The notes beneath the pieces were generated by a model, which had not been told where the DNA came from, did not search any database, and saw nothing but the letters and a program-made list of their open reading frames with translations. DNA of 45,982 bases. Origin: Planctomycetaceae bacterium (GTDB taxonomy: Bacteria; Planctomycetota; Planctomycetia; Pirellulales; Pirellulaceae). A program made the translations under genes and the position numbers. How positions within the stretch are numbered: the stretch's first letter is position 1; every line of letters begins with the position of its first letter. Positions 287 through 23,960 of the stretch are shown here, in pieces. The stretch spans positions 1-45,982 of the forward strand of contig SKZY01000148.1 in assembly GCA_007127095.1 (NCBI GenBank). Direction: 5' to 3'.

Positions 287-1675
287 TTGACCTTGAACCG
301 CTCATTGATTACCCCCCGGACCTTGAAGGGATTTCGCGACTATTTGCCCGCGGCGATGATTCCTCGAGAACGCCTGATGCAAACCGCTCGGGAAACCTTC
401 CGGCGGTTCGGATTCGCGCCGATCGACACCCCGGCGCTGGAATACCTCGAAGTGCTTTCGGGAAAAGGGAGCGACGAGACCGATCGCCAGCTCTATCGGT
501 TCACCGACAACGGCGGCCGTGAAGTCGGGATGCGGTTCGACCTGACAGTCCCGTTGGCCCGTTTCGCCGCCCAGCATATCGGTAGCCTGCGGACGCCTTT
601 TAAACGCTATCACATCGCGCCGGTCTGGCGTGGCGAAAATACACAGGCGGGTCGCTACCGCGAGTTCGTGCAATGCGATTTCGATACGATCGGTACCGAG
701 TCGGTAATGGCCGATATCGAGATGGTGGTGGTGATCGATGCCCTGATGTCGGCGATCGGGATCGAACGGTTCAAGATCCGGATCAACAATCGCCAAGTCC
801 TCAGCGGCTTGCTGGAAGGATTGGGGCTGCAGGATCAGACGGTCGCCATACTCCGATCGCTCGACAAGTTGCCCAAGATCGGTCAGCAGGCTGCGGCCGA
901 AGAGATGATCGCCACGGCCGGGGTCACCGCCGATCAAGCCGATGCGGTGTTGCGGCTGGCGGAGTGTACCGGGACGCCGGCAGCCGTCTTGGCTGCGCTG
1001 AGCGATTTGACCGGCGATAACGCGACCGCCGCGGCCGGGATCGAACGGCTCAATCAGATCATCAGCGGTGCGATCGCCGGAGGCGCACGTGCCGAACGGC
1101 TGCAGATCGACGTTTCGATCGCCCGCGGACTCGATTACTACACCGGCGTGATCGTCGAAACGTTCCTTGATGACCTGCCGCAGATCGGCAGCGTCTGCAG
1201 CGGCGGACGTTACGACAACCTGGCCGAAATGTTTACCAAACAACATCTTCCCGGTATCGGTGCGTCGCTCGGACTCGACCGGCTGCTGACCGCGATGCAG
1301 CAGTTGGAATGGTTGCCCCAAGTCGCGACACCCGCGGCGGTGCTCGTGACCTGGTTCGACGCGTCGCGGCGCGACGATTATCTGATGCTGGCGGCCAACC
1401 TGCGGCGACTCGGCTTGGATGTCGAACTCTATCCCGAGCCAAAGAAACTCGGCGTCCAGTTGAAGTATGCCGATGAGCGTGGCTTTGAGGTCGCCGTCGT
1501 CGCAGGTGACCAGGAATGGCAAGCGGGAAAAGTCCAGGTTAAGGACCTGAAACGGAAAATCGCCATCACCACCGATTATCAGCATGACCGACCCGCCGAA
1601 TTGGCCGCGGTGATCTCGCGAATCCTCGGCGAAGCGGTTCAGCCCTCGATCGCCAGTGAGCCAGTGAGTTCTTAA
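287..1675 (+). CDS. hisS: Histidine--tRNA ligase (HisRS)
   Basis: Cytoplasmic class II aminoacyl-tRNA synthetase that joins histidine to tRNA-His using ATP. The catalytic core shows class II motif 2 around residues 107-133 (WRGEN, Arg115 contacting ATP). It also has the HisRS-specific RGLDYYTG around 280-287 and motif 3 GIGASLGLDRLL around 323-334. The C-terminal ~100 residues fit the anticodon-binding domain. The 462 aa length is slightly above the usual 420-440, with a short C-terminal tail. The first codon is TTG at 287; an in-frame TTG at 305 would start closer to the conserved TLKGFRDYLP, and neither has a clear Shine-Dalgarno sequence, so the start is uncertain. The next gene begins 3 nt after the stop, so the two are probably cotranscribed. 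Confidence 0.95.
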   Translation: MTLNRSLITPRTLKGFRDYLPAAMIPRERLMQTARETFRRFGFAPIDTPALEYLEVLSGKGSDETDRQLYRFTDNGGREVGMRFDLTVPLARFAAQHIGSLRTPFKRYHIAPVWRGENTQAGRYREFVQCDFDTIGTESVMADIEMVVVIDALMSAIGIERFKIRINNRQVLSGLLEGLGLQDQTVAILRSLDKLPKIGQQAAAEEMIATAGVTADQADAVLRLAECTGTPAAVLAALSDLTGDNATAAAGIERLNQIISGAIAGGARAERLQIDVSIARGLDYYTGVIVETFLDDLPQIGSVCSGGRYDNLAEMFTKQHLPGIGASLGLDRLLTAMQQLEWLPQVATPAAVLVTWFDASRRDDYLMLAANLRRLGLDVELYPEPKKLGVQLKYADERGFEVAVVAGDQEWQAGKVQVKDLKRKIAITTDYQHDRPAELAAVISRILGEAVQPSIASEPVSS

Positions 1676-1678
1676 ACT

Positions 1679-3199
1679 ATGGGCATGACCACTCCCAGCA
1701 CGTCGTCGTCCGCCGAGGCTGGCGGGTATGAATACGATCCGGCCGATGCCGTAACGCCGGCGGTCCGCCCCGAAGACCTGCGGTTGTTGATCGTCGACAA
1801 CGAAGCCGCTCACGCCCGGGCGATGACCGAAAGCCTCGAAAAGATCGGCTATCGCTGCGACGTCGCTACCCGTGGCCCCGATGCCGCGAAATGGATCGAA
1901 CGCGAAACCTACGACATCATCATCACCGATATGGTGATGAACGACGTCGATGGGATGCAGATTTTGGCGCTCGCGCGCCAGCGGCTGCCCGACTGCGAGG
2001 TCGTCCTGGTGACCGGGCATGCCAGCGTCCCGCTGGCGGTCGAGGCGATGCAAAAAGGGGCTTTCAATTTCCTCGAAAAGCCGATCACCCCGTCGCGGTT
2101 GCGGGCGATCGTCGAAAAGGCGTCCGAGGCCGTCGGTCTGCGGCGTACCAACACCGAACTGCGCCAACGACTCGACGAGCGTTTCGGCTTCGAAGGGATC
2201 ATCTATACCAGCGCCGCGATGCAGACCGTCATCGACCGCCTGCGGAGGATCGCGGCCACCGACGCGACGGTGCTGGTGACCGGCGAAAGTGGTACCGGCA
2301 AAGAAATGATCGCTCAGGCGATTCACCAGAACAGCCCCCGAAGGGCCAAGCGAATTGTTGCCCTCAATACCCGTGCCGTCAGCGAACATCTGGTCGAAAG
2401 CGAATTGTTCGGCCACGTCAAAGGGTCGTTCACCGATGCGGTCAGCGACCGGGTCGGGGCGTTCGAGTATGCCAACGGTGGCACGCTGTTTCTCGACGAA
2501 GTCGGCGATATGCCGATGAGCACGCAAATCAAGCTGCTGCGGGTGTTGGAAGAACACAAGATCACCCGCGTCGGTGAAAACAAACTGATCAAGGTCAACG
2601 TCCGACTGATCTCCGCCACCAACCGCCCACTGGAAAAGATGGTCGAGGACGGCTCTTTCCGAAACGACCTTTTCTTCCGGCTTAAAGTCGTCACCGTCGA
2701 ATTGCCACCGTTGCGTGAGCGCCGAGACGACGTGATCCCGCTGATGGATCATTTCCGCAAGATGTTCCTCCGACGATACGAAAAACCGGTCGCGCACTTC
2801 GCACCAGCCGTGACCAAGCAGTTTTTCGCCTATGATTGGCCGGGCAATATCCGGCAATTGAGGAATTTCGTCGAGACGATGGTCGTCCTCGATACCGACG
2901 GTGTCCTCGGTGAAGACGACCTGCCGCCGGAATTGATCGACGAGTCGATCGAGGCCGGCGATGGACGCTCACCGTTGGCGTTGCCAGCCGGTGTCACCGA
3001 ATCGGCACTGATCGGCCAACCGCTGTCGGCAATCGAAAAGTGGGCGATCGAGGAGACCCTCCGGTTAACCGGAGGAAACCGCGAAGAAGCCGCTAAGGTA
3101 CTCGGGATCGGCGCACGCACACTCTACCGACGTCTCGACCAGTACAAAAAGGATGACCCGGATTGGAACGAGGCCGCCTTTCAGGCCGCCGACCCCTGA
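1679..3199 (+). CDS. Sigma-54-dependent response regulator, NtrC family
   Basis: Cytoplasmic two-component regulator predicted to activate RNA polymerase with sigma-54. The receiver domain spans about 35-150, with phospho-acceptor Asp84 in TDMVM, Thr112 and Lys134; the second residue of the usual acidic pair is Asn41. The AAA+ domain (about 172-400) has Walker A GESGTGKE at 202-209 and Walker B TLFLDE at 269-274. A Fis-type helix-turn-helix lies at about 455-490 (GNREEAAKVLGIGARTLYRR). The loop that touches sigma-54, normally GAFTGA, reads GSFTDA at 249-254: the key Thr is kept, but Ala and Gly are changed. It starts 3 nt after hisS, with a second ATG two codons in. No partner histidine kinase is nearby, so the signal and target genes are unknown. 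Confidence 0.9.
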   Translation: MGMTTPSTSSSAEAGGYEYDPADAVTPAVRPEDLRLLIVDNEAAHARAMTESLEKIGYRCDVATRGPDAAKWIERETYDIIITDMVMNDVDGMQILALARQRLPDCEVVLVTGHASVPLAVEAMQKGAFNFLEKPITPSRLRAIVEKASEAVGLRRTNTELRQRLDERFGFEGIIYTSAAMQTVIDRLRRIAATDATVLVTGESGTGKEMIAQAIHQNSPRRAKRIVALNTRAVSEHLVESELFGHVKGSFTDAVSDRVGAFEYANGGTLFLDEVGDMPMSTQIKLLRVLEEHKITRVGENKLIKVNVRLISATNRPLEKMVEDGSFRNDLFFRLKVVTVELPPLRERRDDVIPLMDHFRKMFLRRYEKPVAHFAPAVTKQFFAYDWPGNIRQLRNFVETMVVLDTDGVLGEDDLPPELIDESIEAGDGRSPLALPAGVTESALIGQPLSAIEKWAIEETLRLTGGNREEAAKVLGIGARTLYRRLDQYKKDDPDWNEAAFQAADP

Positions 3200-3671: not shown

Positions 3672-4256
3672 TTATCCAGGCTCCTGGTTCCGCAATCGCG
3701 TGTCGATCCGATCGCAAATCTCGTCAAACACCTCGTCAGCGGTTCGTTGCCCATCGATCTGCTCGATCAAACCCCGACCGGCATAATAGTCGAGCACAGG
3801 TGCGGTTTGGGTGCGGAAGACGTGCAATCGTCGCTGAATCGTCTCGGCCGTATCATCGTCGCGACCTTCGACCTCAGCCCGAGCCAGTAGACGCTCGACC
3901 AATTCCGCTTCTTTCACTTGCAGGTCGAGGACGATATCGACCTTTTGCCCCATTGCGGAGAGATGCTCATCGAGCAATTCCGACTGGATGACGGTCCGAG
4001 GGAAGCCGTCGAACAAACTGCCTCGACGGCAATCGTTTCGCTGCAATCGTTTGCGGACGATCCGCATCACCAGCGGATCGGGAGCAAGCTGGCCATTATC
4101 AATGTAGGCACCAACGACTCGCCCGACCGGCGTGTCGCGTGAGGCCTTTCTCAGCATCTCGCCGGTCGACAGATGCGGGATCGTGTAATGTGCCGACAAC
4201 CGGCGGCACTGAGTCCCTTTTCCGGCCCCCGGAGGTCCGATAAAGACGATTCTCAT
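3672..4256 (-). CDS. adk: Adenylate kinase, short-LID type
   Basis: Cytoplasmic enzyme that interconverts ATP + AMP and 2 ADP. The P-loop GPPGAGKGTQ lies at about 7-16. The AMP-binding segment is at about 28-60 (LSTGEMLR), DGFPRT is near 80, and the lid arginines follow (RDDDTAETIQRR). The lid is the short form without the four-cysteine zinc site, which gives 194 aa instead of about 215. The ATG at 4256 is preferred because GGTGG sits 5-6 nt upstream; a GTG at 4265 would add three residues. It follows secY after 63 nt, the classical position at the end of the spc operon. The genes normally next (map, infA, rpmJ, rpsM) are not here. Confidence 0.95.
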   Translation of the reverse strand: MRIVFIGPPGAGKGTQCRRLSAHYTIPHLSTGEMLRKASRDTPVGRVVGAYIDNGQLAPDPLVMRIVRKRLQRNDCRRGSLFDGFPRTVIQSELLDEHLSAMGQKVDIVLDLQVKEAELVERLLARAEVEGRDDDTAETIQRRLHVFRTQTAPVLDYYAGRGLIEQIDGQRTADEVFDEICDRIDTRLRNQEPG

Positions 4257-4319
4257 CGAAACCACCGATCAATTAACGAATCGCGACGACCGCCCAGCCA
4301 ACGCACTGGGCATCGCAGA

Positions 4320-5717
4320 TCACCCGCCGGAAGAATTGCTGCTCCCGCCACCCTCGAGCAGACCTCGGTAATTCCGCATCACCAAGTGAGCATCGATTTT
4401 TTGGATCAGATCGAATGCGACACTAACAGCGATCAACAACCCGGTTCCACCGTAGAAACCGGCGATCGAGAAGGGGACACCAAGCGATCCATAGACGATC
4501 GTCGGCACGATCGCCACGATCGACAAAAACGCGGCCCCGACATAGGTGATCCGGACCATTACCTTTTCGAGGTAGTCCGTCGTTCGCCGACCCGGTCGAT
4601 ATCCCGGTATGAACGTCCCACTCTCCTTCAGATTGTCCGACATTTCCTTCGGATTGAAAGTGATCGCCGTCCAAAAGTAGCAGAAGAAAAAGATCAGAGC
4701 GATGTACAGCAGATTGAACAGAAACGAGCCCTGATCGTTGAGCGTCGAACTGGCCAAGGTAAAAGTCTTAAAGAGCCCACTGCCGGTCGCAAAGTACTGA
4801 CCGAGGAACCCCAGCAACACTCCGGGGATCATCAACAAGCTGCTGGCGAAAATGATAGGCATCACGCCGGCCTGATTGATCCGCAGCGGTAAGTGCTGAC
4901 GGGTGCCGCCAAACATCTTACGACCCCGCGTGAACTTCGCACTTTGGGTCGGGATCTTCCGCTGGCCCATCGTAATGAATACGACCCCGAAGACCACACC
5001 GACGAACAGCACTACCAAAACGACGAGCGTTTCGACCCCAACCTGCCCGCGACTCAACCCGGTCAACTCGACTCGCATGTTGCGGACTAACTCATAGAGT
5101 GCCATCGGCATCTGAGCCAAAATCCCGGCCATGATCAGCAAACTGATCCCGTTGCCGATGCCGTACTCGTCGATCTGCTCGCCAAGCCACATCAGGAAGA
5201 CCGTTCCACAAGTCATCACCATCACGGCGACGATCTGCCAGCCCCAGAACAACGCGTCGCCGCTGGCATTGAGAAAGTTCGGATTGATGTTGCCATAACC
5301 GGTTTCCCCGCCAGCCATGATCATGAACTTCAAATACATCCAGCTCTGTACCAGACAGATCGCTACGGTCAGATAGCGGGTGTACTCGTTCAGCTTCTTA
5401 CGCCCGGCTTCACCTTCCTTTTTCAACTCCTCGAGCGGTTTATACACGCTGCCGAGTAGCTGAAAAATGATCGACGCAGAGATATACGGCATGATGCCGA
5501 GGCCGAAAATCGTCGCATTCCGCAGATCGCTGGCCGCGAACAGGCTGACCTTCTCAAAGAAATCGGCCGCCCCTCCCGAACCACGATCCATGCCCTGAGA
5601 CACCATCGGCAACGGGATGTGAAAACCGATCCGGTAAATCCCGAGCAACCCGAGCGTCAGCAACACTTTGCGACGCAGTTCGGGGATAGAGAAAATGACT
5701 CGAAGTTTCTCGAACAT
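4320..5717 (-). CDS. secY: Protein translocase channel subunit SecY
   Basis: Central channel of the Sec translocon in the cytoplasmic membrane; with SecE and SecG it moves unfolded proteins driven by SecA or inserts membrane proteins from the ribosome. At 465 aa it is of normal size with about ten membrane spans. Near the N-terminus are GLLGIYRIGFHIPLP and the TM2 region FGLGIMPYISASIIFQLL. The cytoplasmic loop carries QRKIPTQSAK, and near TM8-10 there are FNPKEMSDNLKESGTFIPGYRPG and YGGTGLLIAVSVAFD. It begins with ATG 78 nt after rplO, the conserved place in the spc operon, which couples translocon supply to ribosome synthesis. Confidence 0.97.
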   Translation of the reverse strand: MFEKLRVIFSIPELRRKVLLTLGLLGIYRIGFHIPLPMVSQGMDRGSGGAADFFEKVSLFAASDLRNATIFGLGIMPYISASIIFQLLGSVYKPLEELKKEGEAGRKKLNEYTRYLTVAICLVQSWMYLKFMIMAGGETGYGNINPNFLNASGDALFWGWQIVAVMVMTCGTVFLMWLGEQIDEYGIGNGISLLIMAGILAQMPMALYELVRNMRVELTGLSRGQVGVETLVVLVVLFVGVVFGVVFITMGQRKIPTQSAKFTRGRKMFGGTRQHLPLRINQAGVMPIIFASSLLMIPGVLLGFLGQYFATGSGLFKTFTLASSTLNDQGSFLFNLLYIALIFFFCYFWTAITFNPKEMSDNLKESGTFIPGYRPGRRTTDYLEKVMVRITYVGAAFLSIVAIVPTIVYGSLGVPFSIAGFYGGTGLLIAVSVAFDLIQKIDAHLVMRNYRGLLEGGGSSNSSGG

Positions 5718-19179: not shown

Positions 19180-19935
19180 ATGACTTCTGATCCGCCGCTA
19201 TCACCCAACGGCAGAGACCGCGCGGGCATCAATCTGTTCGGCAAGGACGTTGGCACACCGATGGCCAGTACGGCGGCGCTGGAGTCGTATCCTTCGTGGA
19301 CCCGTTCGCGAAGTGCCGCAGCATTGGTGCTCCGCTATCTCGATCCGATGCGGGGCCAATTGATCGAGTGGCTTGGCGATGAAAAGCTTGCCAACGACAG
19401 TTTGACGCTGTTGATCGGTCATCTCGTGACCGAGGGCTTCGGTACTTCTTGTCGTGGGTTAGCACGCGATTTTCTCATTCGCGGCCTCCGCTCGGCGGCC
19501 AAAGCCAAAATCGGCCTGCTGCCGGAATCGGTACGTCCGGAGATCGACTTTTCGGGTTGGTTGCCAGATACGCCAAGCTGGCTGACCCGTTGGCGAGGTG
19601 AAATCCTTAATCGCGCTTGGCGAGATCTCGAACGGCAGCAGCACCGGGTCCCGACTCGACCGCTGTTCACGCTGTTGCGGCAGGCGATTGAAAATCCCGG
19701 CGAGACGCCCGAAATGTTGGCGATTCGGATCAATACCGAGGGCGAGTCTCAGCAGGTGCGAGTCACCCCGGAAACGATTCGGGAGTGGTTGATCCCGGCC
19801 CACCGCCGCTTCGCGGAGCTTATCTGGCACGAAGTCGCTGAGACTCTCGAGCGGAACGACCCGCAAAGTGTCAACGAGGAATTACGAACGCTGGGGCTAC
19901 GGCAGACGGTTATCAAGCTGAAAACGGCGAGTTAA
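19180..19935 (+). CDS. Kinase-linked conserved protein, possibly a divergent sigma-70-like factor
   Basis: Cytoplasmic, 251 aa, no signal peptide or membrane span. Residues 38-75 (SWTRSRSAAALVLRYLDP, then LIEWLGDEKLANDSLTLLIGHLV) look like the helical region 2 of an extracytoplasmic-function sigma factor. The stretch RDFLIRGLRSAAKAK and the second half (WRDLERQQHR, then RPLFTLLRQAIENP) follow a pattern I associate with planctomycete proteins encoded beside Ser/Thr kinases. No clear region 4 helix-turn-helix is visible, so promoter binding is not shown. It starts with ATG 24 nt after the kinase gene. If the sigma link is wrong, it could be an unrelated kinase substrate or adaptor. Confidence 0.5.
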   Translation: MTSDPPLSPNGRDRAGINLFGKDVGTPMASTAALESYPSWTRSRSAAALVLRYLDPMRGQLIEWLGDEKLANDSLTLLIGHLVTEGFGTSCRGLARDFLIRGLRSAAKAKIGLLPESVRPEIDFSGWLPDTPSWLTRWRGEILNRAWRDLERQQHRVPTRPLFTLLRQAIENPGETPEMLAIRINTEGESQQVRVTPETIREWLIPAHRRFAELIWHEVAETLERNDPQSVNEELRTLGLRQTVIKLKTAS

Positions 19936-22499
19936 TCGATCGCATCCTTCGGTCGCTCGGCGGCGGATTGGCCATCGTGCGACAGGTCGCTGCCGCCCTG
20001 AAGAAACAGAGGGTGCTGCGAATCGGTCGTCGGTCGGTCGATCGTCCATTGACGAAGCAAGGCCCCGGCTACGGCGATACCGGACAGAAATGCCCCTTCG
20101 ATCCGGGGGCCGCCGCACCAATCGCCACAAGCCCCGAGACCATTGGCAGCGTCCCAGAGGCAATCTTCGGGAAGTGGGTTGTCGGGGATCGCGTACCGCC
20201 AACGATGAGCGATCGCCGTTTCAATCCGCGTCGCCGCCGGAACTCCGGTCTGCTCTCGCCAGGCGGCGACCAAGCGGTCGCACACCGAGGCCGCTTCGGC
20301 CTCAAGATGTTCCGCCGACCAGGCCGCTGAGGCGTGTAGGACCCAGGTCTCGCCATCTCCCGAGCGGCCCGGTTTGGAATTGTTGCGACAGATCCAGGAC
20401 AAGGGGCTGTCATCGACGAACGCGCCGTCAAAGTCGATACCGCTGGCGCCGGCGAGTTGCAGCATCACGGCCCAACAGGGATTCATCTTGACGGCCGAGA
20501 TTCGCTCGGCCAAGTGAGAATGGTCGTGAAGCAAGACGGCAGTTTGAGCTGGCGGGCAATTGATGATCACTCGATCGAACCGCCCCAACGAACCGCCGGT
20601 ATCGTCCGACAATTCCCAACGATCCTGACGCCGCCGCAGCGCCTGGACGTGTGTGCTGAGCCGACAATCGAGGTCCTCGGCAAGATGCTTGGCGACCGCA
20701 TTCATCCCCGGGCAGCCAACATACCTGGCCGTATCTGACTTTTCGGCGATCGGTTTGGCGTTGCGCAGCTGTACGACTCGACCGCTCCACGAATCGACCA
20801 GACCGGAATCGACCCACGAGCGGACATAGCGAGCGAAGCGACAATCGCGGGCGGTGAAATACTGCGCACCGTGATCGAATCTCAATCCCGTCTTCGTCCT
20901 GCGGGTCGACATCCGACCTCCGACGCCGCGTGATTTATCGAACAGCCTGACATCGAGTCCGTGGTCGGCCAGCGTCCGCGCGGCGACCAGACCTGCCAAC
21001 CCGGCGCCGACGATCGCCACCGAGGGCGGACGTGCGGCGATCGGTCGGGTGACGACCGAGCGATACTTTGCCAGGTCGATTCTGCGCATGTGAGATTCTA
21101 TCGGGCGGGGGCGGACCGTACCCAAGACCGACCGTTCGGGTTCGAACCGGCGGTCGAATTGGCCAAAACACCAGAGCAGCCCGCCGTAGCTGCTCGGATC
21201 GCGACCGTCGAGAGCGTAGCGATGATTCAGGTCGATCGCCAAATGCAGCGCTTGAGCCGGTGACGTAGCCCAGCCGATCAATGCCTTGCCCCAGGTCATC
21301 CTGACGTTGTTGTGCAATTCGCCGTGTCGCAACAGGCTTTGCTGACAGAGATCCCACAGTGGCTGGCCGGTCACGCCACGCGATAAAGTCTCCCAAGGAA
21401 AAATCGATTCACGACGGTCGGAGGCGTGAGCGGCCAAGGTTTGTCGCGCCCAATCCGGGATCGCGTCGAGCGAATCGATCTGTTCGCCGACGTGGTGACA
21501 AAAGTGGAAAGCGAGTTCACGCCAGATCAAAAGCTCGTCGAGGAATTTTTCCGCCCCTGCTCCGGCAGCTTCGCGAGCGATTCGAAACGGGCTGACCATT
21601 CCGAAATGGAGATAACCGCTCATCCGGCTGACCCCGCCGTGATCGGCGGCATCATTACGACATCGCGAGTACTTTTTTAATCGCTCGTCTCGGAACGCAG
21701 TCCACCGCGCATAGCCGCTGCGAGATCCACCCGGTGTATCGGAGACCGCGGCGATCGAATGATCGATCTGGCAGCTGCCGATCAGTGCAGCGAGGTCGGC
21801 ATCTTGCAGATCGAGCGGTTCGAACGGCAGGCTACCGCAAAACGGTTGACAGTCGACCGGCTGGACCGGGTACGGGCGATTCAGTCGTGCGGAGTAGAGA
21901 TCGGCCGTAGCCTTGCGGTACTCGAAGGCCCGCGTATAGGCGCGATCGATCAGCGGCAGTGGAACGACGCAGGAGGAATCGACACAGAGGATCGGTGCGG
22001 TACACATCGTCGCCAACCGGCCGAGCCAACCGACGATTGGTCCGACCGGCATCTCATCGCTGACCAACACCGCGGCTCGGCGGGCCAGGTCTCTCAGGTG
22101 TGCCCCGCGATGGCCCTCGCGCTGGAGGTGAAACCGATAAGCAACGCCGAGGTCGTTCAATTCCCGTTGAACATCGCGGGCTCCCTGCAGAATAAACGCG
22201 TGATGGCGATCGGAGGCGTAGGGATACTGCTCGCATAAAGCGTGATAGACCAACAGCGGCAGCCCGAGATCATTGGCGAAACGGATCGCCACGTCGAGTG
22301 ACGGGTTCTCATGTCCGCGGACGGCGTGATGCATCCAGTAGAGAACAAAATCGCCCGTGAACCGGTCGGCGGGTTCCGGCTTCGTCGTTCCCCGCGGCGG
22401 TTTCACCGCGCCGGTTGATGCGGCAGTCGGTGAAGGCAGAGGACCGCGATACCAGCGGACGCGTTCGGCCAGATGAGGGGGCAATGACGCGATTTCCAA
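19932..22499 (-). CDS. Fusion of class II CPD photolyase with a renalase-like FAD oxidoreductase
   Basis: One 855-aa frame with two domains. Residues about 45-480 are a class II-type photolyase, which repairs cyclobutane pyrimidine dimers with light. Seen are the start FVLYWMHHAVRGHENPSLDVA, SGYLHFG near 294-300, and LDGRDPSSYGGLLW near 430-443. Trp382, Trp403 and Trp410 have the 21- and 7-residue spacing of the electron-transfer triad described for class II enzymes. Residues about 492-840 are a renalase/amine-oxidase-like flavoprotein: dinucleotide site VAIVGAGLAGLVAA, GVGGRMSTRR, FDHGAQYFTAR, and a C-terminal GDWCGGPRIEGAFLSG. The start is TTG at 22499 with GGAGG 8 nt upstream. The 3' end overlaps the convergent sigma-like gene by 4 nt. 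Confidence 0.85.
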   Translation of the reverse strand: MEIASLPPHLAERVRWYRGPLPSPTAASTGAVKPPRGTTKPEPADRFTGDFVLYWMHHAVRGHENPSLDVAIRFANDLGLPLLVYHALCEQYPYASDRHHAFILQGARDVQRELNDLGVAYRFHLQREGHRGAHLRDLARRAAVLVSDEMPVGPIVGWLGRLATMCTAPILCVDSSCVVPLPLIDRAYTRAFEYRKATADLYSARLNRPYPVQPVDCQPFCGSLPFEPLDLQDADLAALIGSCQIDHSIAAVSDTPGGSRSGYARWTAFRDERLKKYSRCRNDAADHGGVSRMSGYLHFGMVSPFRIAREAAGAGAEKFLDELLIWRELAFHFCHHVGEQIDSLDAIPDWARQTLAAHASDRRESIFPWETLSRGVTGQPLWDLCQQSLLRHGELHNNVRMTWGKALIGWATSPAQALHLAIDLNHRYALDGRDPSSYGGLLWCFGQFDRRFEPERSVLGTVRPRPIESHMRRIDLAKYRSVVTRPIAARPPSVAIVGAGLAGLVAARTLADHGLDVRLFDKSRGVGGRMSTRRTKTGLRFDHGAQYFTARDCRFARYVRSWVDSGLVDSWSGRVVQLRNAKPIAEKSDTARYVGCPGMNAVAKHLAEDLDCRLSTHVQALRRRQDRWELSDDTGGSLGRFDRVIINCPPAQTAVLLHDHSHLAERISAVKMNPCWAVMLQLAGASGIDFDGAFVDDSPLSWICRNNSKPGRSGDGETWVLHASAAWSAEHLEAEAASVCDRLVAAWREQTGVPAATRIETAIAHRWRYAIPDNPLPEDCLWDAANGLGACGDWCGGPRIEGAFLSGIAVAGALLRQWTIDRPTTDSQHPLFLQGGSDLSHDGQSAAERPKDAID

Positions 22500-22607
22500 G
22501 ACGATTGCCTCCGGTGACTGGTAGCGGTTGAGGTAGGAACGACGGGCGGCGAACTGAAAGCATCATAGGACAGCGGCCAGCCGGTCGCTTTCAAGCCTCG
22601 GTCCTGT

Positions 22608-23960
22608 TCAGGCGTCGACCGGTTGCGGGCTGACAACCGCCGGCTGGACCGGCTTGGTGGCGTCCATCCCGAGCATCATCAGCGAGGCGACAAAAAAGGC
22701 TGAGCCACAGACGATGAACACCAAGTCTTGACCACGTCCGCTCGCCTCGCCCCACTTCATCAGGTAGGGGACCAACATGGCGCTGAACGCGGCACCAAAA
22801 TTTCCCCACATGTTGGCCCAACCAAAAACGGCCGCGGTGTTACGACCGCCGACGTCTTGCATGAAGGCCCAAGTTGAGGGATTGGCGATATCGGTCATCA
22901 ACGAGACGACGGCACAGCAGGTGACGATCAGCCAGACCGACTCGAGTGTCAGACAGGTCATGTAGGCGAAACCGGCGATCGCCAAGGCAATCGACGGGAC
23001 CAACACCCGGCCCCAGCGGAGACCGATCGCCGACACGGCGCGATCGCCGAGCACGCCGCCGAGCAGCTGTCCCGGCATTCCCGATGCCAGGACCAGAGTC
23101 ACCATCGTCGCGCCGGTGACCGCGGCGACGCCTTGTGAGTCCGCCAGGTAGCTCGGCAGCCAGGTGATCAGGAAGGCCCAGCCGATGTTGATCGAGAACT
23201 GCGACAGCGAATTGAGCCACAGCGACCGATTGAGTGCGCAGGCGAGAAGCATGCCGAAGAATTCGCCTGCTGTCGGCCGCACCGTATCGGGCTGTGGACC
23301 GATCGATTGCAGCTCGCCGTCGTTGACAGCGGGATGCGAATCGGGGCGGTCGCGAACGATCCAGGCGTACAATCCGGCGACCACCAGGCCGGCGATGAAG
23401 TAGCCGATCAACACGCTCCGCCAATCTCCCAACGCCACGATCAAAAGCGCGGTCAGATAGGGGGCGAGGGTGCCACCGAGCCGTCCACCGAGACTGATCC
23501 AGCCGCTGGCCAGTCCCCGGCGATGGAGCGGGAACCACTGCCGCACCACGCCACTGGAGGTCGGGTAGGCACCGGCTTGGGCGACGCCGCAGGCCAAGCG
23601 GGCCAACAGCAATGCCGAGACGGTCGAGGCCCAACCGGTGATCCCCGTCATCAGCGACCAGAGCACGATGTAGCTGGTCAGCATCCGTCGGGCACCGAAC
23701 CGGTCGCTGGCCCAACCGGCGGGGACCTGGAATAGCGCGTAGGTGAAGAAAAAAGCGCCAAGGACCTCACCGATCCGTTCCTTCGACACGTCGAAGTCGG
23801 CCCGAAAGGAGTCGTCCTTGACGATCTCGCCGAGACACACCCGGTCGAGATAGAGCATGAATGCCATCGCGACGCTGACGCCGATCACGCGATAGCGCAC
23901 CGTAGTGGGCGGTTCGGCGGACGATCGCGACGGTGGGTCCCGCATCGGCGAGACGCTCAT
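22608..23960 (-). CDS. MFS transporter, anion:cation symporter (hexuronate/phthalate-like) type
   Basis: Inner-membrane major facilitator with about 12 spans and a short hydrophilic N-terminus. The first span carries AFMLYLDRVCLG, which fits the ACS family of organic anion importers. The loop 2-3 motif is GWASDRFGARRML. TM4-5 contain ARLACGVAQAGAYPTSSGVVRQWFP and RGLASGWISLGGRLGG. The substrate is probably an organic acid or amino-acid-like anion, but the exact one cannot be read from sequence. Its ATG overlaps the stop of the upstream PLP-enzyme gene by 4 nt (ATGA), so the two are translationally coupled and the transporter likely imports that enzyme's substrate. 450 aa. Confidence 0.85.
   Translation of the reverse strand: MSVSPMRDPPSRSSAEPPTTVRYRVIGVSVAMAFMLYLDRVCLGEIVKDDSFRADFDVSKERIGEVLGAFFFTYALFQVPAGWASDRFGARRMLTSYIVLWSLMTGITGWASTVSALLLARLACGVAQAGAYPTSSGVVRQWFPLHRRGLASGWISLGGRLGGTLAPYLTALLIVALGDWRSVLIGYFIAGLVVAGLYAWIVRDRPDSHPAVNDGELQSIGPQPDTVRPTAGEFFGMLLACALNRSLWLNSLSQFSINIGWAFLITWLPSYLADSQGVAAVTGATMVTLVLASGMPGQLLGGVLGDRAVSAIGLRWGRVLVPSIALAIAGFAYMTCLTLESVWLIVTCCAVVSLMTDIANPSTWAFMQDVGGRNTAAVFGWANMWGNFGAAFSAMLVPYLMKWGEASGRGQDLVFIVCGSAFFVASLMMLGMDATKPVQPAVVSPQPVDA

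Follow-up and report, generated by a model that had tools for sequence, protein, structure and literature searches.

A photolyase-renalase fusion gene in the window

The window, i.e. the whole analysed stretch of 45,982 nucleotides (positions 1 to 45,982 of contig SKZY01000148.1, Planctomycetaceae bacterium assembly GCA_007127095.1), carries on its minus strand, at positions 19932..22499, a gene for a protein of 855 amino acids in which a class II photolyase is followed by a renalase. The original prediction had placed the gene correctly without naming its strand. Its central claim, a class II photolyase and a renalase-like flavoprotein in one chain, agrees with the matches obtained for the NCBIfam model TIGR00591 over residues 49-480 and for the bacterial renalase 4zcc/3kkj over residues 494-818. 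The frame is uninterrupted from the TTG start at 22499 to the stop codon at 19934-19932 and contains no internal stop. The predicted start signals could be read directly from the minus strand, with a GGAGG ribosome-binding sequence at 22508..22512 and a spacer of 8 nt before the TTG. Since the matching codon is a GTG in three relatives of the same genus (L009, L010 and L011), whose fusions show 66-69% identity to that of the window, the call of the TTG start is supported.

The junction between the domains comprises residues 481-492 (21024..21059, minus strand). An assembly error or a missed frameshift joining two genes could produce such a frame, but no evidence supporting this explanation was found. 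Contigs were scanned for photolyase motifs and the loci most like the whole fusion were kept, a procedure which shows that the junction is real and not how frequent it is. Both domains lay in one open frame in 79 of the 80 kept loci, some of them from cultured strains or whole chromosomes; the 80th locus starts at a contig end. Both domains are nearly complete at 116 loci, which gave 112 distinct fusions, where distinctness means exact comparison of a core stretch, so that near-copies remain. In 101 of these 112 the stretch from R473 to G498 measures 26 residues, though most of its letters vary. Because of the recurrent junction and the near-constant length an artefact was rejected and is given next to no probability; the predicted absence of a stop or frameshift around the junction holds as well. 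The alignment indicates that the two domains are held together at near-constant spacing in a large family.

The photolyase part

The photolyase domain (residues 49-480; 21060..22355, minus strand) was matched by TIGR00591 (phr2) with 296.5 bits, whereas the PRK10674 and DASH models gave only 27-28 bits. The curated cut-off of TIGR00591, which lies at 550, is not reached by the fusion, and a second class II photolyase of this genome, which stands alone, also scores just 324. The best matches in the PDB are the class II enzymes of Methanosarcina mazei (MmCPDII, 2xry) and rice (3umv), with which a common fold is shared (Foldseek template modelling (TM) score to the target of 0.84-0.90) at 25-30% identity; the fusion nevertheless belongs to a separate clade.

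The complete tryptophan triad that had been predicted at residues 382, 403 and 410 was recovered by alignment to M. mazei. W382 (21354..21356) corresponds to W360, W403 (21291..21293) to W381 and W410 (21270..21272) to W388, all on the minus strand, with the same spacing of 21 and 7 residues; in the W388F mutant 5o86 it is the Phe that aligns opposite W410. Accordingly, the fusion shares the Trp381-Trp360-Trp388 chain of the M. mazei enzyme. W382 and W403 are present in all 112 fusions and W410 in 106 of them.

A comparison of 27 fusions with 27 stand-alone class II photolyases yielded 77 columns conserved to at least 90% in the stand-alone enzymes, of which 49 are equally conserved in the fusions and 28 are not, while 57 other columns, e.g. 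N398 and T402, are conserved in the fusions only. All 49 shared columns are kept in 66 of the 112 fusions, the lowest number being 44. E322, W326, M401 and W443, which presumably act at the lesion site, are kept in 111-112 of the 112 fusions, and we take M401 and W443 to be the Met and Trp that mark photolyases for cyclobutane pyrimidine dimers (CPD). A table in the PubMed Central (PMC) paper PMC7560933 lists a Met and a Trp as such markers. On sequence grounds, the first half of the protein is a photolyase of the class II type, with its tryptophan chain for electron transfer retained.

The renalase part

The renalase domain comprises residues 493-818 (20046..21023, minus strand) and contains a GxGxxG motif for flavin adenine dinucleotide (FAD) at residues 498-503. 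Residues 494-818 matched the bacterial renalase 4zcc/3kkj with 235 bits over 325 residues; human renalase (3qj4) followed with 43 bits, and the top non-renalase there reached 25.7. In comparison with the Pseudomonas renalases (4zcc, 4zcd, 5krq and 3kkj), the whole domain shows 40-41% identity and a TM-score to the target of 0.94-0.96. Unlike these stand-alone enzymes, the renalase of the fusion is joined to a photolyase. The original prediction had extended the second domain over residues 492-840. Its renalase nature is confirmed for residues 494-818, whereas residues 823-855 turned out to be a low-confidence tail: the C-terminal stretch of residues 819-855 (19935..20045, minus strand) is probably disordered, with a predicted local distance difference test (pLDDT) value below 50 from residue 823.

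All 39 columns that are conserved to at least 90% in 34 stand-alone renalases are kept in the window, and at least 35 of them are kept in 101 of the 112 fusions (range 24-39). By its sequence, the C-terminal half is a complete renalase of the bacterial type. These numbers also bear on the explanation that the C-terminal domain has turned into a structural or regulatory domain or into a flavoprotein with another substrate, leaving the photolyase as the real function. Invariant columns are indeed far more numerous in the photolyase part than in the renalase part, and in L037-L039 and L223 between 8 and 15 conserved renalase residues are lost while the Gly-rich FAD motif is retained. In view of the near-complete set of renalase columns in most fusions, however, such a change of purpose is considered quite improbable.

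As a separate observation, L038 (G201) and L039 (G097) keep only 25 and 24 of the 39 renalase columns, with 47 of the 49 photolyase columns retained in both.

Distribution of the fusion

A fusion was counted when one match spanned the junction, from query position 440 or lower to position 530 or higher. Few candidates were scored per genome, and the counts are therefore lower bounds. In the survey of Pirellulaceae suggested by the original prediction, at least 121 of the 241 genomes from the window's family carried the fusion, and it was present in other groups, too. Counted by eye, at least 11 of 60 relatives (own genome included; the copy in G029 is cut by the contig end) and at least 14 of 392 Planctomycetota carry it. 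Outside the Planctomycetota the cases belong, by record title, to three other phyla and include cultured Halochromatium: at least 5 of 116 genomes in the family of Halochromatium roseum, at least 16 of 220 in the phylum of a Gemmatimonadaceae metagenome-assembled genome (MAG), one of which (G1241) just reaches position 531, and at least 17 of 207 in the phylum of a Sandaracinaceae MAG. In a sample of 398 genomes from the phylum to which H. roseum belongs, the matches listed showed the fusion in the centre genome only. Carriers by record title are Rhodopirellula baltica BR-MGV, Stieleria sedimenti, Neorhodopirellula pilleata and Alienimonas chondri as well as H. roseum and H. glycolicum. Both Halochromatium genomes possess a PF03441 photolyase in addition to the fusion. 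In the window's own genome no second full-length renalase was found, and no plasmid record covered 80% of the query.

A complementarity between the fusion and a separate renalase was considered for the 60 relatives, but was dropped because of the small numbers and because G1017 carries both. Several loci deserve a remark of their own. G982, G994 and G966 show two junction-spanning places per genome, possibly paralogues or a strain mixture in MAGs. In G1241:C1 (L235 and L236) a fusion is split into two halves about 0.49 Mb from each other; since the fetched stretches contain runs of 100 and 200 N, a scaffolding fault is likely. G1117:C15 (L216/L233) has a renalase in the second part of an open frame of about 900 codons, the first 500 codons of which gave no Pfam match and no class II photolyase. 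The MAG titles of L101 (Klebsiella pneumoniae) and L083 (Candidatus Kuenenia) fit poorly to their planctomycete-like fusions and may be automatically assigned misnomers.

Phylogeny

In a FastTree phylogeny of 27 fused and 27 stand-alone photolyases, the fused photolyase domains form one clade with a support of 98, and the nearest stand-alone row, L177, sits on a long branch. When 15 fusions and 6 stand-alone rows were added, one non-fused row (L234) entered the fused clade, its place being unsure. L234 (G1413:C60, 4014-5364), which belongs to the same phylum as the Sandaracinaceae MAG, is a photolyase of the fused clade with 48% identity to that of the window. Its frame stops at the start of the linker, no renalase match was found in the 9.3 kb fetched, and by eye a His stands at the place of Tyr367. 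It may represent a loss of the renalase or an ancestral state.

The fused renalase domains, by comparison, intermix with stand-alone ones. Their monophyly was rejected by the approximately unbiased (AU) test with p 0.015, based on 17 fused and 18 stand-alone sequences and a quick tree with weak supports. Because the AU test rejects a single clade of fused renalases, the renalase part has likely been released or exchanged, which is the simplest reading of the trees.

Separate renalase and photolyase genes in other bacteria

Renalase and photolyase also occur as separate neighbouring genes. In the Pseudomonadota set, 67 genomes had a match, of which 59 had an unfused renalase match; the centre genome and seven photolyase-only genomes were left out. 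A PF03441 photolyase lies 2.0-3.2 kb downstream of the renalase on the same strand in 16 of the 59 genomes, several of which may be close relatives. In the three paired regions scanned (L206, L207 and L210), renalase and photolyase are separated by a gene of the MerR family, and the regions of this gene in L207 and L210 gave a B12-binding match under the Pfam cut-off. In L210, genes for SnoaL-like, short-chain dehydrogenase/reductase (SDR) and amine-oxidase proteins follow.

This arrangement is reminiscent of the LitR cluster of Pseudomonas mendocina, which is induced by light and in which a photolyase lies beside flavin oxidoreductase genes (PMC9758184). In the Pseudomonadota regions a renalase is located upstream of the MerR and photolyase genes. 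The FAD-dependent oxidoreductase PME6625 of P. mendocina (PMC9758184) need not be a renalase. Unlike the fusion, the LitR cluster and the Pseudomonadota pairs comprise separate genes, and their photolyase is Pfam-typical and not of class II. The occurrence of gene pairs in 16 of 59 genomes points to a shared light-stress role for which no covalent electron wire is required.

In planctomycetes without the fusion, neighbouring genes for a class II photolyase and a renalase were sought and rejected, as no class II photolyase adjoined any of 16 stand-alone renalases (4 kb per side, contig permitting). Likewise, no renalase was found beside the stand-alone planctomycete photolyases fetched (about 3 kb per side). 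At L162 (G038:C40) a DPRP photolyase-related gene (1636-3174, minus strand) adjoins a stand-alone renalase gene (3941-4990, plus strand) divergently.

Proposed function and electron transfer

The reading we regard as probable is that of a bifunctional photodamage-repair flavoprotein, which would act on DNA dimers as well as on mis-reduced reduced nicotinamide adenine dinucleotide (phosphate), NAD(P)H. The N-terminal half is predicted to bind FAD and to split UV-made pyrimidine dimers of the CPD type under blue light. The C-terminal half would bind its own FAD and oxidise mis-reduced NAD(P)H of the 1,2- and 1,6-type to NAD(P)+, with oxygen as the electron acceptor, and the fusion would make both repair jobs appear together during light stress. 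The background for the second activity comes from renalases: the human enzyme accepts 1,2- and 1,6-NAD(P)H as substrates but not the normal 1,4-NAD(P)H (PMC7660482), a title cited in the same paper ascribes 2- and 6-dihydro-NAD(P) oxidase activity to the bacterial enzyme, and renalase is described as repairing NAD(P)H isomers (PMC7660482, PMC8669784). Non-specific photochemical reduction during cofactor regeneration is listed as one source of such isomers (PMC7660482).

Several points weigh against this interpretation. A measured activity of any member of the fusion family was not met in the literature searched, and the formation of isomeric NAD(P)H by light within the cell is assumed. In 43 of the 59 Pseudomonadota genomes there is no PF03441 photolyase within 5 kb of the renalase. 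A PF03441 match is present in 18 of the 25 planctomycete genomes that have a stand-alone renalase, but only in G038 does it lie near the renalase (1.9 kb away and below the cut-off); in the next nearest genome the distance is 121 kb, and the rest are farther away or on other contigs. Beside 26 stand-alone planctomycete renalase loci, which include the renalases nearest to the fused ones (L051, L054 and L165), no trace of a class II photolyase was found within about 1.5-4 kb per side. Furthermore, the second activity is not always kept, since L038 and L039 retain so few of the renalase columns.

An alternative would be a built-in electron donor, a more specific form of the electron supply suggested by the original prediction. 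Isomeric NAD(P)H would reduce the flavin of the renalase, which in turn would reduce that of the photolyase or refill the outer end of the tryptophan chain and so keep FADH- ready with no need for an external reductant. The linker length, preserved despite drifting letters, would fit this explanation, and so would the model of the window protein. This AlphaFold 2 (AF2) model, calculated with 22 aligned fusions, is a two-domain chain with a pLDDT of 88 and a predicted template modelling score (pTM) of 0.88. Among the 50 solved structures listed by Foldseek for it, the renalases rank at the top, followed by the M. mazei and rice photolyases, with the TM-scores given above. The inter-domain geometry rests on this single model, and the model of a Halochromatium fusion (15 rows) was weaker with a pTM of just 0.68, which speaks against a built-in donor.

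The end of the electron chain is likewise ambiguous in this respect. The chain Trp381-Trp360-Trp388-Tyr345 is termed almost strictly conserved in class II photolyases, and Y345 of M. mazei is described as the auxiliary last donor (PMC5885780). At this place the window has F367 (21399..21401, minus strand), opposite the Y345F site of 5o8d, a substitution that the original prediction does not mention. This Phe and the added C-terminal enzyme domain are among the features that set the fusion apart from the M. mazei enzyme. As the Tyr is an auxiliary donor, its absence was not treated as decisive for the assignment to class II. In one joint alignment all 27 stand-alone class II rows carried the Tyr, compared to 47 of the 112 distinct fusions, and on a FastTree tree of the fusions at least 18 changes at position 367 are required. 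The loss of the Tyr, together with the loss of W410 in 6 of the 112 fusions, looks as if the outer chain end were less selected, as expected for a built-in donor. On the other hand, position 367 is one of the 28 columns relaxed in the fused clade, and among the fusions no link was seen between its residue and the state of the renalase part. Since L234 also lacks the Tyr without having a renalase, the loss is not tied to the fusion. Moreover, the invariance of W382 and W403 suggests that photoreduction is seemingly still needed, and the separate gene pairs of other bacteria speak against the need for a covalently attached donor. Because human renalase spares 1,4-NAD(P)H (PMC7660482), a second domain that reduces the photolyase in a general NAD(P)H-dependent manner is unlikely in the form stated. 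Altogether, a built-in donor seems unlikely.

The more pointed version, a self-fuelling photolyase in which damaged NAD(P)H isomers feed electrons through the renalase flavin to the flavin of the photolyase or to the outer tryptophan, is rated as rather unlikely. If true, a waste cofactor of light stress would keep DNA repair charged, and the repeated loss of the Tyr would be the trace of a new donor. Besides the favoured bifunctional repair protein, some electron flow between the two flavins is possible.

Neither of the two domains is new, but the fusion, its spread and its tyrosine pattern were not met in the literature searched. Among open-licence PMC papers, none was found with both photolyase and renalase, and none with photolyase, amine oxidase and domain fusion together. 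The fusion was not reported in the titles or abstract openings of related open-licence PMC literature, and it was not met in the available parts of PMC7560933, PMC5885780, PMC9758184, PMC11417400, PMC7660482 and PMC8669784.

To our knowledge, both the upkeep of the reduced photolyase flavin in the cell and the purpose of bacterial renalases are open questions. A naturally occurring fusion, common in the family of the window, ties them together, and the recurring separate gene pairs in other bacteria provide an independent pointer. Both questions can be tested on one purified protein, and named strains such as Rhodopirellula baltica, Stieleria sedimenti and Halochromatium roseum carry the fusion.

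Gene neighbourhood

At 27 fusion loci, 95 neighbouring frames were picked simply as longest frames, 20 of which were scanned singly; five of the 95 match PF03441 and three match DPRP. A photolyase-family gene lies within two picked frames of the fusion in at least 5 of the 27 loci (L077, L085, L099, L100 and L116).

In the window, a frame of 251 amino acids at 19180-19935 on the plus strand, without a Pfam or NCBIfam match, runs convergently towards the fusion gene, the 3' ends of both overlapping by four bases. Upstream of the fusion, on the same strand, follow a transporter of the major facilitator superfamily (MFS) ending at 22608, a BhcC/D-serine-dehydratase-like enzyme and further frames. 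Since a pattern scan gave no terminator-like site in the interval between the MFS gene and the fusion, their co-transcription is possible. By eye, an MFS-like frame with a similar start also precedes the fusion in L010 and L011.

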